Shown: piece after piece, positions 17,530 through 23,406 of the stretch | How positions within the stretch are numbered: the stretch's first letter is position 1 | Layout of the letters: each line of letters starts with the position of its first letter | Origin: a virus | Length of the DNA: 35,036 bases | Virus record (IMG/VR): IMGVR_UViG_3300034954_000939 | Coordinates: 1 to 35,036 of that record | Reading direction: 5' to 3' (one strand) | Made by a program: the position numbers and the translations under genes | The notes under the pieces: model-generated | The model's database searches: none | What the model was told of the DNA's origin: nothing | What the model saw: the letters and a program-made list of their open reading frames with translations, nothing else

Positions 17530-17834
17530 AAAATGATAAAAATATGGATGAACTTGTTGACATGTTCATCAAATTATATGCTGTAAAACCCAAAGTAAAC
17601 ACGCTAAAAAAGAAAGAGATACTTGATTTTATGAGGTTTGTATTTACCTATACACAAAAGCATCCTAAATATAATCAAACACAGACAGACTTGATGGTTT
17701 ATATCAAGTCTTTTGACGACGAGATCTACAAAAAAATCCGTGAAGCATTTTCTGACCTTCATAACCGAAGCACGTATAACCAAGGCATCCCAACAAGCAA
17801 AAAGATTGGGATTAGTCGGAGACGGGCACGGTGA
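17526..17834 (+). CDS. Small basic helical protein, 102 aa
   Basis: Starts MKNDKNMDELVDMFIKLYAV with helices rich in Lys and aromatic residues (TLKKKEILDFMRFVFTYTQK) and a very basic end KKIGISRRRAR. ATGA overlap upstream. Its last 95 bases also encode the start of the next protein in another frame, which is a long overlap for this genome. No family recognised. Confidence 0.6.
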   Translation: MKNDKNMDELVDMFIKLYAVKPKVNTLKKKEILDFMRFVFTYTQKHPKYNQTQTDLMVYIKSFDDEIYKKIREAFSDLHNRSTYNQGIPTSKKIGISRRRAR

Positions 17835-18633
17835 TTGGTACGATCAGCAAGGTAATTTAAAAGCAAAGACTGTCAATGGTGAACTCAAAATGTTCGGTAG
17901 TGGCAGTGCAGGTGAAGATGAAGTAAAAGATAAACCAGAACCATATAGAGATATAAGTAGAGTATCTCAATCACCTACAGCATTCCTCAACACACCAAGA
18001 GGACAGCAACTCAATACACAGGCGAGACAAAGACAACCAGAAGCACCATCAGGGTCAGGTACAACTACACAAGCACCACAACCAAGGGCACCTTTGACTG
18101 TTGCCTTTGATAAATTTGATGATGAAGAAGTGACAGCCAATGTTCTTGCCACAGTTGGTGAGATAGCAACCGAGAACTTCTATTATATTTTTCCCAGTAG
18201 AGATAGTGACATAGAAGAGTTGAAGGCTGCGTATCCAGATCTCAGTGAGTCAATTATAGATGATAAAAATGCAGAGACAATATACGATGTATTACAGTCA
18301 TTATATGAAAACGGATATGATGCACTCAATATTGTAGTAAGAAGATCTAGAGCAGCAGCCATATCCAAATTGGCGTATGAACAGAATGGTGCTCTTTACA
18401 AGTTCAAGATGCTGAATGTCATTCCTGTTGATGAGAGATCAGTAAGAGAACAGTATTTGGCAGGTGATATATTCAAACAAGGTTCAGTTGTAGAGTGTCA
18501 TGGTCAGACAGGAGAGATTATAAGAAGAGGGGCAAACCATTTGATTTGTATAGACGAACAGAAGCAAATTTTTAGAGCATGGATATCAGAAGCAACAGAA
18601 CTTAGTAAGTTTGATCTACCCATTGAGTTCTAA
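17740..18633 (+). CDS. Modular cyanophage protein with a LVGDGHGDWYD repeat-type motif, 297 aa
   Basis: Start taken at GTG 17740, giving VKHFLTFITEARITKASQQA, which matches the MKxFxxFxxEA-type start of many cyanophage proteins. RLGLVGDGHGDWYDQQGNLK follows at about residues 22-41, then a Pro/Gln/Thr-rich linker (about 75-125) and a folded C-terminal half with DDEEVTANVLATVGEIATEN and VVECHGQTGEIIRRGANHLI. The linker suggests two separate domains. It lies first of three Lys/Gly-rich module proteins. Possibly virion-associated; function unknown. Confidence 0.7.
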   Translation: MKHFLTFITEARITKASQQAKRLGLVGDGHGDWYDQQGNLKAKTVNGELKMFGSGSAGEDEVKDKPEPYRDISRVSQSPTAFLNTPRGQQLNTQARQRQPEAPSGSGTTTQAPQPRAPLTVAFDKFDDEEVTANVLATVGEIATENFYYIFPSRDSDIEELKAAYPDLSESIIDDKNAETIYDVLQSLYENGYDALNIVVRRSRAAAISKLAYEQNGALYKFKMLNVIPVDERSVREQYLAGDIFKQGSVVECHGQTGEIIRRGANHLICIDEQKQIFRAWISEATELSKFDLPIEF

Positions 18634-18668: not shown

Positions 18669-19226
18669 ATGAGTAATCCTTGGTCAGACACATATAAAAA
18701 AATCAGAGAACCTTATTTGCAAGAAAAAATGGCAAAGAAGGACTATGATGGTGATGGTAAGATAGAATCTGGTAAGGATGAGTACATGGGTTCTAGAGAC
18801 AAAGCCATCAAGAAAGCGATGGGTAAGAAAGTTGAGGAACACCATCAGAAAGATGCTGACGGTAAAGTCATCGAGCATGATGACACTACACCTGCATCAG
18901 TGGAAGAGGGTGCACCATATACAGTAACTAATGCTGATAAATCTGGTAACACACCTGCTTATCAAGGTCTGTTGAAAAATAAGTTGAATAAGTTGACAGG
19001 TAAACCATTATATAAAGCAGCACCACATTTACAATTAGATAAAGCACATTACGAACCTGCAAAGGTAGCAAAACCAAATTATTCTAACTGGAGAGAAGAT
19101 TTTGTATGGCAAGATGAGGTAGAGGAAGCAATCAAGAGACCTAAGTTAGACATACAGGAGAAAGGAGTCAAGAATAAAGTAGAGATAAATCCAGACGACG
19201 GACTGAAGGAAGAAAAAAAAAACTAA
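18669..19226 (+). CDS. Lys-rich module protein with Asp-rich loop, 185 aa (frame 1 of a probable frameshift pair)
   Basis: The N-terminus (MSNPWSDTYKKIREPYLQEK) is followed by KKDYDGDGKIESGKDEYMGS, an Asp-rich loop resembling an EF-hand with spacing off by one at its end, and a repeat of the theme in KDADGKVIEHDD. The rest is Lys/Pro-rich. The frame ends in a run of ten A (19213-19222) then C and TAA. A -1 shift on A AAA AAC continues into the frame at 19223 and gives a product of about 271 aa. Late-promoter-like octamer upstream. Confidence 0.7.
   Translation: MSNPWSDTYKKIREPYLQEKMAKKDYDGDGKIESGKDEYMGSRDKAIKKAMGKKVEEHHQKDADGKVIEHDDTTPASVEEGAPYTVTNADKSGNTPAYQGLLKNKLNKLTGKPLYKAAPHLQLDKAHYEPAKVAKPNYSNWREDFVWQDEVEEAIKRPKLDIQEKGVKNKVEINPDDGLKEEKKN
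19217..19226 (+). promoter_or_regulatory. Candidate -1 ribosomal frameshift site A AAA AAC before UAA
   Basis: The zero frame reads AAA AAA AAC TAA. A AAA AAC (19217-19223) is a consensus X XXY YYZ slippery heptamer. After a -1 slip the next codons are CTA ATC CCT GAC (LIPD), and that frame is open to 19483. AAGGAAG (19206-19212) lies about 9 bases before the P-site codon, as in the Shine-Dalgarno-stimulated -1 site of E. coli dnaX. No clear 3' pseudoknot was seen. A natural or sequencing indel in the ten-A run would look the same. Confidence 0.5.
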
Positions 19227-19483
19227 TCCCTGACGTAAAGGTAATAAAGAAGAGTGTAAAGGACATGTCCAAACCCGCAGGTGTTACTGGGGGTGTGGAC
19301 TATCGTCTTATGTCACAATCACATGAACCTGATGGTGATATGATTGAGATGGCAGACTTTAGTCTAGACGATCTCGAAAAACCAAAAAAGAAAGAGTTTG
19401 ATATAACTAACCCTAGAGAGCGAGCAGCATATAGCAGACTCAAAAAAATGGGTAAGAATCCACTTATAAAGAAGGTGGACTAA
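19223..19483 (+). CDS. Downstream frame of the frameshift pair (about 86 aa, or 72 aa if started at ATG 19265)
   Basis: The frame reads LIPDVKVIKKSVKDMSKPAG and on through YRLMSQSHEPDGDMIEMADF to TNPRERAAYSRLKKMGKNPL. It is open back through the A-run, so it looks like the C-terminal part of the protein at 18669. An ATG at 19265 could start it alone, but it has no proper Shine-Dalgarno (GGA touches the ATG) and lies within the palindrome GGACATGTCC. EPDGDMIE recurs as EPEGQMLE in the next protein. Confidence 0.6.
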   Translation, partial: LIPDVKVIKKSVKDMSKPAGVTGGVDYRLMSQSHEPDGDMIEMADFSLDDLEKPKKKEFDITNPRERAAYSRLKKMGKNPLIKKVD

Positions 19484-19486
19484 ATA
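19479..19486 (+). promoter_or_regulatory. Late-promoter-like octamer ACTAAATA
   Basis: It overlaps the stop of the previous frame and the first base of ATG 19486. If used, the start site would be about 19492, inside the gene, so either translation starts later or this copy is chance. GAAGGTGG upstream already gives a usable Shine-Dalgarno for 19486. Confidence 0.2.
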
Positions 19487-22005
19487 TGTTACATGAAAAA
19501 GCACTCAGCAAAAAGCAACAAAGGTTCTTTGGGATTGTTAGAGCGGCTCAAAAGGGCACTTTCAAAGGCGAGACCACGCCACAGGTTCAAAGAGCTGCTG
19601 CCAGCATGACTAAAAAAGATGTAAAGAAGTTTGCATCTACTAAACACAAAGGTCTTCCAGAAAAAAAGGTCAAGAAGGAAGAGACCTGTGGTAAGGGTGA
19701 ATACTATTGTAATGATGACCAGAAATGTAAACCTATACCCAAGGGGATGAAAGTGAAAAAGGATGGATTCCTAGTCAAAGAGACTTCAGTGGCGTTCACT
19801 TATAAGAGTGGAAGTGGTTTTGATGCAAAGGTTGGTAATACATCAGTAAGAAACACAATCAAGAATGTGAAGACAGCAGGGGAAACAATCAAAAACATCA
19901 AGAGTGATGGACTTGTAGCTGGTGTCAAGAAAACTTTTAACAAGAATACACCACCTAAAACATCTATTGGTGATAAAGTAAGCAACGCTATTAGTCAATA
20001 TAAACTAAATATGGGTGAGGGTTCTCTCCACAAATGGTTCAAGGGTTCTAAATCCAAGGACGGTAAAGGTGGATGGGTCAACGTAGTGACAGGTGGAACT
20101 TGTGCTAGTGACGAACCTGGTGAGGGTACACCTAAGTGTGTGTCATCCTCTAAGAGAGCAAGCATGTCTAAAGCAGAAAGACTCTCTGCTGCTAGACGTA
20201 AGAAAAAAGCAGATCCTGGTCAACAACAAAAAACTGGTGCTGCAAAACCAACTTATGTCTCGACTGATAAACCTAAGAAAAAGATGAAAGAATCATTCGC
20301 TACTAACAAATACAAAGATATGGCGAAGAGAGATGCTGAACTCAAGCGTAAGGAAGATCTCAAAGTCAAGTCTAAGAAAGAGTCAGTAGAAATAGACGAG
20401 GCGAAGTATGAGAAAGGTGCATCAACTTATGGTAAGGCATCTATCAGAAACAAGAGAATGTTTGGTAAGGGTGGTAACGCTGCTCCTCCAGAGGAGAGAG
20501 GTGCTGCAATCAAAGTCAGACAGGCAAGGCATCAGGAAAGACGTTACGTTAAGAAAGGTAATAAATATCATGAGCCAGGTAAACATAGACCAGAAGTCCA
20601 TGGTGTAAACAAACCAGAGGAGGAAAGGAAGGGTAAAAACATGAAAAAAGAATCAGTTTTCACACCACTTGTCTTCACAGTCAGTGAAGCAAAGATCGAT
20701 AAGATTGATCCTAAGAATAAAAGGAACAGGAGAAACGTAGCGAAGTTTGGTAAGCAAATCAAACCTTACGATCCACCTGGTAAGGCATATAAGAATGAGA
20801 TGGGTAAGTTCATGCAAAAGCAAAGACAAGATATGCATGACAAGAAACGTGGCGTAAAGACTAAAGTGAAAGAAGATCATGTACCACTGACAGGTGACGC
20901 ACAAAAAGAATATGAAAAGTTAGTGAAGATGGCAAAAGATAAAAATCTTGATATGAAAAAGAGACAAGGTGCTGATGCAGCAATAACACAGGGTGGACAT
21001 AGCAGCGTTCTAAACAAAGAAGAATCAGATAAGAAGGGAAAGGGAAGTGGTAGTAAGGATGCTTGCTATCATAAGGTCAAGTCACGTTACAGTGTGTGGC
21101 CAAGTGCTTATGCTTCAGGTGCCTTAGTCAAGTGTCGTAAAGTCGGTGCTGCAAACTGGGGTAATAGTAGTAAGAAAGAAGACTATGGTATCATAAGTTT
21201 CCAAGACTTCATATATGAGAAATGCTGGAAGGGGTATGAGAAGAAAGGCATGAAGACCATGTTCGGTAAGAGGTATCCAAACTGCGTAAAAAAGGAGGAA
21301 GCTGACCTTCCTGTAGACGAGTGTTGGAAGACACATAAGAAGGTCGGCATGAAGATGAAGGGTGGCAAGATGGTTCCAGACTGTCGTCCTAAAAACGAAG
21401 CAGTAGAAACTGAGAAGAAACCTAAGAAGGCAATGGATGCAGGTGCCAGAGGCAGAAGACTTCTACAGCGTAGAGAGTACAAAGCAAAAGTATCTGAGTT
21501 CATACCCAAGGAACTAGAGGATCATGTAGTATATGAAGGGGATCCAAACACCAATTTGTTCCCTGCTGGTACACAGCAAAAAGTAAAGAAAGTATTGGAT
21601 GCTGGTTCTAACTTTATGAAGAATAATAAGGTTGGTAGAGTAATAGGTAAAATTTTCGGACCTTCTAATCCAAATAATAAAGGCAGCAACTACACATCTG
21701 GTGGTAAGATAGCAAACTCATATGAACCAGAGGGTCAGATGCTAGAAGGATCTGCTGCATGGCAGAGGAAAGCTGGAAAAAACTCCAAGGGTGGGTTGAA
21801 TGAGAAAGGAAGAAAGTCTTACGAGGCACAGAATCCTGGCTCAGACCTCAAGGCACCTGTCACAGGTAAGGTAAAACCTGGTGGTAAGGCAGCGAAAAGA
21901 AGGAAGTCTTTCTGTGCTCGTATGGGTGGAATGAAAGGACCTATGAAGAAACCTAACGGTGAACCTACACGTAAAGCGTTAGCGTTGAGAAAGTGGAAGT
22001 GCTGA
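19486..22005 (+). CDS. Mosaic protein of small Lys/Cys-rich modules, 839 aa
   Basis: Modules in order: residues 1-60 DUF3008-like (ALSKKQQRFFGIVRAAQKGT); 68-92 Cys module (CGKGEYYCNDDQKC); 103-115 FTYKSGSGFDAKV; 178-255 KWFKGSKSKDGKGGWVNVV, then CASDEPGEGTPKC and ADPGQQQKTGAAKPTYVSTD; 523-560 DACYHKVKSRYSVWPSAYAS; two tandem 21-residue CW...C repeats (580-600, 613-633); 755-839 SAAWQRKAGKNSKGGLNEKG to ALALRKWKC. Very basic, low in hydrophobics, no signal or membrane helix. Each module is known to me from separate cyanophage proteins, none with a function. DNA-binding, packaged internal protein is one possibility. SD GGTGG 8 bases upstream. Confidence 0.85.
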   Translation: MLHEKALSKKQQRFFGIVRAAQKGTFKGETTPQVQRAAASMTKKDVKKFASTKHKGLPEKKVKKEETCGKGEYYCNDDQKCKPIPKGMKVKKDGFLVKETSVAFTYKSGSGFDAKVGNTSVRNTIKNVKTAGETIKNIKSDGLVAGVKKTFNKNTPPKTSIGDKVSNAISQYKLNMGEGSLHKWFKGSKSKDGKGGWVNVVTGGTCASDEPGEGTPKCVSSSKRASMSKAERLSAARRKKKADPGQQQKTGAAKPTYVSTDKPKKKMKESFATNKYKDMAKRDAELKRKEDLKVKSKKESVEIDEAKYEKGASTYGKASIRNKRMFGKGGNAAPPEERGAAIKVRQARHQERRYVKKGNKYHEPGKHRPEVHGVNKPEEERKGKNMKKESVFTPLVFTVSEAKIDKIDPKNKRNRRNVAKFGKQIKPYDPPGKAYKNEMGKFMQKQRQDMHDKKRGVKTKVKEDHVPLTGDAQKEYEKLVKMAKDKNLDMKKRQGADAAITQGGHSSVLNKEESDKKGKGSGSKDACYHKVKSRYSVWPSAYASGALVKCRKVGAANWGNSSKKEDYGIISFQDFIYEKCWKGYEKKGMKTMFGKRYPNCVKKEEADLPVDECWKTHKKVGMKMKGGKMVPDCRPKNEAVETEKKPKKAMDAGARGRRLLQRREYKAKVSEFIPKELEDHVVYEGDPNTNLFPAGTQQKVKKVLDAGSNFMKNNKVGRVIGKIFGPSNPNNKGSNYTSGGKIANSYEPEGQMLEGSAAWQRKAGKNSKGGLNEKGRKSYEAQNPGSDLKAPVTGKVKPGGKAAKRRKSFCARMGGMKGPMKKPNGEPTRKALALRKWKC

Positions 22006-22849: not shown

Positions 22850-23221
22850 ATGAAATTTGATGAATTGAACGAGGAGAATCATCTCCTCTTTGCTATTAAA
22901 TATTATGAAAATCCTCATGCTGCCACAATGGAAGACTTTGAGGAGGATCTAAAAAGATTCAAATATATCAAGAGACTGTTGAAGAAGTATGTGGTTTCGG
23001 GTGAGTTGAAGCATCATCTCATCTTGAACCACCTTATTATATGTTTCAATATATTTGGTGAGGGTACAATACCACTTCTTTTCTATAAGATTGAGAAAGA
23101 ATATTGGTCTATACTCAAAACATTTTTATTATTTCTCAATAGAATACCTGACTATCCTAAAACTGGTCTTGATTCTCTTGATATTGATAAGGAATGTAAC
23201 GCTATTCTAAATTCTATCTGA
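22850..23221 (+). CDS. Conserved T4-like cyanophage protein, 123 aa
   Basis: Starts MKFDELNEENHLLFAIKYYE and has RFKYIKRLLKKYVVSGELKH near residues 41-60, LILNHLIICFNIFGEGTIPL near 62-81 and EYWSILKTFLLFLNRIP near 88-104. Helical, aromatic-rich, soluble. I recognise the pattern from T4-like cyanophages, where it lies near primase, but no activity is known. It starts a coupled run leading to gp61 and nrdAB. Confidence 0.75.
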   Translation: MKFDELNEENHLLFAIKYYENPHAATMEDFEEDLKRFKYIKRLLKKYVVSGELKHHLILNHLIICFNIFGEGTIPLLFYKIEKEYWSILKTFLLFLNRIPDYPKTGLDSLDIDKECNAILNSI

Positions 23222-23406
23222 TGGATCAGGATAAACTAGAAAGAATCATGCAACTTATTCGTGAGGACATGCCTACGAATAATATTTCTAGTGGAAACAT
23301 CAAGCCTGCTACTGAGTTAGGTGATGATCCTATCGTACGTAAGAAGAAAAAGAAAAAAAAGTATGCTTATCTGGGTCCTAGATCTCGTAAGACTTGGATG
23401 CCATAA
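23221..23406 (+). CDS. Small basic protein with KKKKKKK run, 61 aa
   Basis: MDQDKLERIMQLIREDMPTN is a helix; the second half DDPIVRKKKKKKKYAYLGP and SRKTWMP is strongly basic and may bind nucleic acid. Shares one base with the stops on both sides. The A-rich stretch for the Lys run (23341-23360) is another possible slippage site but no alternative frame continues usefully. Function unknown. Confidence 0.65.
   Translation: MDQDKLERIMQLIREDMPTNNISSGNIKPATELGDDPIVRKKKKKKKYAYLGPRSRKTWMP

Follow-up and report, generated by a model that had tools for sequence, protein, structure and literature searches.

Sequence comparison indicates that a gene of a T4-like cyanophage very probably makes both a short protein of 185 amino acids (aa) and a fused protein of 271 aa from one slippery joint. 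The shift would be mainly a ribosomal -1 slip, with RNA polymerase possibly contributing; we put the probability of this reading at about 60%. The gene lies in a window that comprises a whole IMG/VR record (35,036 bases). For the polymerase-UvsX region of the window, the nearest matches are T4-like cyanophages, such as P-TIM68 (71%) and P-SSM2. The slip gene, its parts and its two neighbouring genes are on the plus strand.

Briefly, T4-like cyanophages would have a long modular protein, rich in lysine and mostly disordered, and the gene would encode its first part. The majority of ribosomes would terminate at the TAA (19224), yielding the 185-aa protein. A fraction would slip one base back on A_AAA_AAA or A_AAA_AAC and read to 19483, giving 271 aa. 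We take the main slip to be ribosomal. RNA polymerase slippage on the A-run possibly adds messages with an extra A, which would encode the same protein. That both products are made, and in what ratio, is what we infer.

A slippery joint abuts the stop codon

The 0-frame open reading frame (ORF; 18669-19226) starts with ATG and encodes 185 aa, the N-terminal part of the modular protein and its short product; relatives of it were found. It ends GAA GAA AAA AAA AAC TAA. This agrees with the initial annotation, which had the frame ending in AAA AAA AAC TAA with A_AAA_AAC before the stop. The heptamer A_AAA_AAC (19217-19223) abuts the stop codon (19224-19226), as the slip site does in relatives. 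A second heptamer, A_AAA_AAA (19214-19220; 0-frame AAA AAA), lies one codon upstream and overlaps the first. Both fall in a tract of ten A (A10; 19213-19222), on which RNA polymerase as well as the ribosome might slip. The joint is borne by a shared C-terminal module, PKLDIQEKGVKNKVEINPDDGLKEEKKN (19140-19223). In relatives, this module is followed either by a slippery site and stop or by an in-frame continuation. The window has an in-frame heptamer of the form X_XXY_YYZ, as in bacterial -1 programmed ribosomal frameshifting, and a run of at least nine A or T, as in programmed transcriptional slippage. In Escherichia coli, A_AAA_AAG ranks with the heptamers that slip most efficiently, and A_AAA_AAC is reported to slip with low efficiency (PMC4066793). 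Of the two overlapping heptamers in the window, A_AAA_AAA may be the better slip site.

The A10 tract is the sole 10-A run in the window, where about 0.3 would be expected from the A-to-A step rate. We also examined 741 distinct ORFs of at least 100 codons from the fetched loci. A slippery heptamer abuts the stop in 37 ORFs of the slip-gene family. Outside this family 17 ORFs end so; 14 are a single unrelated conserved gene end (GGGTTTA) and three are A-type. Elsewhere in the window, a run of eight A (23353-23360) occurs in a lysine stretch (RKKKKKKKYAYLGP) of a 61-aa ORF (23221-23406) and is a possible slip site. Locus L159 has nine A in a lysine-rich stretch that resembles it.

The -1 frame evolves as coding sequence

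A -1 slip leads into a frame of 86 codons (19223-19483) that begins LIPDVKVIKKSVKDMSKPAG, is open to the stop ending at 19483 and would form the C-terminal part of the long product (185 + 86 = 271 aa). Its first ATG is codon 15 (19265). No Shine-Dalgarno sequence precedes this ATG, or any start in the first 60 codons of the frame. The initial annotation had described just such a frame, open to 19483 and lacking a good start of its own, and our analysis bears this out.

We estimated selection on the codons immediately after the slip. For the window group, pN/pS is 0.14 across the 14 codons ahead of the first ATG (three sequences only); with the same three sequences, one shifted frame gives 1.08 and the other has no synonymous change. 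At A_AAA_AAG loci, pN/pS is 0.04 over the 24 codons at the start of the -1 frame and 0.13 for the group with no nearby start codon. Shifted frames of these loci give 1.2 or more, or have zero synonymous change. Judged by these ratios, the -1 frame evolves as coding sequence, under purifying selection, from the slip point on.

Two separate proteins could be made instead, if translation stopped at TAA and then reinitiated, or started independently, at a later ATG such as that at 19265. GenBank annotates P-HM2 and P-HM1 in this way, as gene pairs PHM2_164/165 and PHM1_163/164, and abutting genes occur at this position in S-TIM4 and P-RSM4. We consider this very improbable for the window. The ATG at 19265 has no Shine-Dalgarno sequence, and the codons ahead of it are coding-constrained. 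In addition, in five relatives (L008, L015, L148, L164 and L169) the 42-113 codons past the slip contain no ATG. Hence, the conserved start of those -1 modules cannot come from separate initiation, and we rejected separate initiation as a general explanation.

The two frames are also found fused. In L022, a single 496-aa ORF matches the 0 frame of L014 (E 2e-44) and then its -1 frame (E 1e-34). Similarly, L131 reads EEKKKLSEAKPLIPTVKTTKKDKRDMSKPDGTAKVDYR in a single frame where the window requires a slip, and both L130 and L131 have the window's own joint in one frame, NPDDGLKEEKKKLSEAKPLIPTVKTTKKDKRDMSKPDGTAKVDYR. One-frame versions of the A_AAA_AAG-type joint occur in L156 and L162.

The site and the frame relation are kept in relatives

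We aligned the shared module KLDIxExGVKNKxEINP and used the alignment to scan for relatives. Counts are of distinct sequences, since IMG/VR assemblies may share phages. In five distinct loci (the window, L007, L008, L009 and L014), A_AAA_AAC or A_AAA_AAT abuts the stop. Eleven further distinct loci have A_AAA_AAG abutting TAG or TAA at the same module. Wherever a heptamer abuts the stop at this module, an open -1 frame follows, extending over as many as 845 codons. The site and its frame relation are kept across distinct relatives, as is characteristic of -1 frameshifting. The remaining same-module loci run on in one frame, apart from a few A-tract loci in a third (+1) class. The initial annotation had proposed aligning homologous genes as a check; among the relatives, many distinct loci retain the slippery site with its adjoining stop, and homologues fused in one frame also occur.

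Some loci stand apart. In L045 (6019-6028), A_AAA_AAA abuts TAA and the -1 frame is open for at least 207 codons, into a SNWRED-type module; an ATG soon after the joint may be an ordinary gene start. In L137, L140, L141, L145 and L123, a joint of 11 or 12 A precedes a long frame in +1 relation, which would be reached only through polymerase slippage or an uncommon kind of ribosomal shift.

The relatives also bear on whether the A-run was miscounted in assembly, or a recent indel broke a one-frame gene. A-run length does differ between relatives, and L130 and L131, with 11 A, are fused in one frame at the window's joint. Nevertheless, the window, L007, L008 and L009 (ten A, then C) and L014 (eleven A, then T) come from several metagenomes and share one -1 relation. 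Coding constraint is kept in the -1 module, and the layout recurs, with no long A-run, at A_AAA_AAG loci and in isolate genomes. The initial annotation had offered an indel in the ten-A run as its alternative. Against this, four relatives (three with A10-C, one with A11-T) stand in the same frame relation, and we regard an indel as unlikely. Sequencing error was rejected as a general explanation, the layout being kept at same-module and sister-module loci.

A sister module shows the clearest arrangement

A second set of loci carries a sister module. Here, the 0 frame ends FSEWRxIxEKK with A_AAA_AAG abutting TAA or TAG; a -1 slip leads into VxGPVEVMPxLDDPDG. We found this arrangement in 32 distinct loci, with the -1 frame open in all. 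They include the isolates P-HM1, P-HM2 and MED4-213; P-HM2 has one additional codon before the stop. P-HM1 and P-HM2 were assembled with 454 software, and metagenomic relatives agree with both. When the -1 part of P-HM2 alone was used as the query, all 29 loci recovered kept the slip arrangement. The last three codons are invariantly GAA AAA AAG, while the remaining Glu codons are chiefly GAG and a further Lys codon alternates between AAG and AAA. In GenBank, sister loci are annotated as two genes (PHM2_164/165 and PHM1_163/164), or the second part is missed. The distance from slip to ATG is 6, 7 or 8 codons, changing by whole codons only, which argues against separate proteins. Over this stretch ahead of the first ATG, pN/pS is 1.1 and no constraint at the protein level is seen.

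Other gene ends in these phages also attracted attention. In P-HM2-type phages, a truncated cytidyltransferase-like gene always ends G_GGT_TTA TAA (L003 1610-1618, and L090, L105, L108, L113 and others). This end has the form of a slippery site, but only 15-34 codons are open in the -1 frame; GC190 seems to be split into two genes in these phages. A frame change is also seen in L078 (4803-5665; MED4-213 CPMG_00012/00011), where two overlapping short genes stand in place of the one 297-aa gene, PHM2_112, of P-HM2.

Putative stimulatory signals in the two modules

In the window, a Shine-Dalgarno-like AAGGA (19206-19210) precedes the heptamer by 6 nt and the 0-frame P-site codon by 7 nt. Its role is doubtful. 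Compared with synonymous-codon shuffles, it is no stronger than the codons predict (P 0.61). Such a motif exceeds synonymous expectation only in the A_AAA_AAG module loci (P 0.01-0.26) and in L114. The dnaX-like Shine-Dalgarno stimulator of the initial annotation is present as a motif and has no demonstrable effect. The wider proposal, a short and a fused protein made by a -1 slip, is upheld by the site in relatives, the adjacent stop, the coding -1 frame and the one-frame homologues; the case for the stimulator, and for the ribosome as sole agent in the A10-A12 subclass, is weaker.

A predicted RNA hairpin (19260-19309; z -2.7), of uncertain role, begins 36 nt past the heptamer of the window. 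Its z-score is -4.5 in L007 and -1.0 in L009, with one compensatory pair across the three sequences. In the sister module, the hairpin starts 6-9 nt past the heptamer and four pairs have compensatory changes. The covariation score of this hairpin beats 500 of 500 shuffles and all slid versions. A downstream hairpin at a spacing of 5-9 nt is thus seen in the sister module, whereas that of the window is 36 nt away. The unremarkable Shine-Dalgarno-like motif, the distant hairpin and the low efficiency of A_AAA_AAC in E. coli weigh against the favoured reading.

Ribosome or RNA polymerase

An alternative is that RNA polymerase slips on the A10 tract and messages with extra A are translated normally to give the 271-aa protein, so that the ribosome need not slip. 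We hold this to be possible, though clearly less probable than a mainly ribosomal slip. A run of nine A or T permits efficient slippage by bacterial RNA polymerase (PMC5009743), a length that A10 exceeds, and Thermus dnaX provides a precedent. The pure A-run is kept although KKK is encoded by AAA throughout in merely 23 of 472 cases. Furthermore, related joints of 10-12 A number 13 in frame, five in -1 and five in +1 relation, a tally of 23 distinct tracts of which several are related and not independent events; genuine A9 tracts are all in frame, two poorly framed A9 rows having been set aside by eye. Ribosomal -1 shifting alone is no explanation for A10-A12 tracts in all three frame relations. 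For these relatives, polymerase slippage or drifting A-runs fit better than a dedicated ribosomal signal.

Conversely, the A_AAA_AAG loci have six or seven A, too few for polymerase slippage, yet 11 of 11 show the same -1 relation and adjacent stop. Like the A_AAA_AAG sites, all five A-type -1 loci have the adjacent stop. The A_AAA_AAG sites are best explained by the ribosome. In the A10-A12 subclass, which includes the window, the shift may result partly or wholly from RNA polymerase slippage.

The joint as a possible point of module exchange

The window and L008 are 99.7-100% identical in each 300-base block over 3.3 kb, up to AAAAAACTAA. Past this point they are wholly different for one module, and then alike again at 91%. 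The swapped modules are both in the -1 frame and differ in length by a multiple of three. In the fetched loci, runs of at least ten A occur almost only at such lysine joints. One tentative reading, which we think less probable than its converse, is that slippery sites are shuffling joints: cyanophages would swap short peptide modules at A-rich lysine joints, the window and L008 being a caught exchange. Because the joints slip, a module could then be attached in different frames without losing its expression. If so, each gene would always yield a short and a long protein.

The gene and its neighbourhood

Upstream of the slip gene lies a gene (17713-18633) with a partial match to the phage 'cytidyltransferase' family phrog_395, at the T4-GC190 position. 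Gene order around it matches P-HM2, S-SSM5 and P-SSM7. In named phages, the slot of the slip gene is occupied by GC534, GC715, GC654 or gp185. The slip gene belongs with the modular genes at the GC534/GC715/gp185 position, lying right after the GC190 cytidyltransferase-like gene and having modules in common with them. The next gene (19486-22005) encodes an 839-aa modular protein with DUF3008 at its N end and DUF6321 at its C end. S-layer-like and replication genes follow beyond it. Within its single frame, the 839-aa gene includes a module that L010, L012 and L016 have as their -1 product. Modules of the 839-aa protein recur in the slip gene of relatives; modules travel between the adjacent genes.

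Pfam matched neither the 0-frame part nor the -1 part. In PHROG, the 0-frame part matches families of unknown function and the -1 part has no match. Among named phages, no match was found for the -1 part alone or for the shared module with its joint. Rfam returned nothing for the window or for four relatives with the joint. For the 185-aa ORF, the AlphaFold prediction is mostly disordered and of low confidence (mean pLDDT 55, exceeding 80 only at residues ~81-120). The product of T4-GC190 was detected in S-SM1 virions (PMC3037559). As the slip gene is directly downstream of that position, the likeliest guess is a role for its protein in the virion or its assembly.

Comparison with known recoded genes

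As in dnaX -1 frameshifting, the cyanophage gene has a lysine heptamer and two putative products with a common N terminus. The sister module adds A_AAA_AAG and a covarying hairpin 6-9 nt downstream. Unlike dnaX, the shift is predicted to lengthen the product rather than shorten it as in E. coli; the genes are unrelated, and the window has A_AAA_AAC on A10 with no demonstrable Shine-Dalgarno effect. Transcriptional slippage in Thermus thermophilus dnaX, on a run of nine, resembles the A10 of the window and the mixed frame relations of its relatives, with truncated and full-length products expected. However, the A-runs of the sister loci are just six or seven long, followed by G, and would not be expected to make the polymerase slip.

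In lambda gpG/gpGT, the T3 coat protein and Ig-like extensions, one phage gene gives a short and a -1-extended protein, as predicted for the slip gene. The slip gene differs from lambda G/GT in location: it lies in the interval from the cytidyltransferase-like gene to gp61/nrdA, whereas genes of the tail assembly chaperone type sit between those for the major tail protein (tail tube) and the tape measure. Its putative long form is also disordered and modular. We found no sequence relation to gpG/gpGT-type frameshift genes.

CsoS2 of alpha-carboxysomes is disordered and repetitive, like the slip-gene protein. It occurs in two lengths, which arise via -1 frameshifting (PMC5009743), as predicted for the slip gene; it belongs to a host microcompartment, not a phage, and we claim no sequence relation. 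Further counterparts are GC534/GC535 of P-HM1 and P-HM2, gp185, GC715 and GC654. These share the slot after T4-GC190 and have modules in common, and GC534 with GC535 forms the same slip arrangement. They are nevertheless annotated as separate hypothetical or 'possible cytitidyltransferase' genes, and the word 'frameshift' is absent from PMC3037559.

Few marine viruses have been sampled as well as T4-like cyanophages. Even so, the open-licence literature searched yielded no report of such a recoded gene in this group. In that literature, searches for cyanophage frameshifting and for DUF3008/DUF6321 gave nothing on the slip gene. The clearest version of the arrangement sits in the isolates P-HM1, P-HM2 and MED4-213, so the claim is testable in existing laboratory phages. 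If the joint both sets two protein lengths and permits modules to be exchanged between frames, recoding would serve the evolution of phage proteins as well as their dosage.
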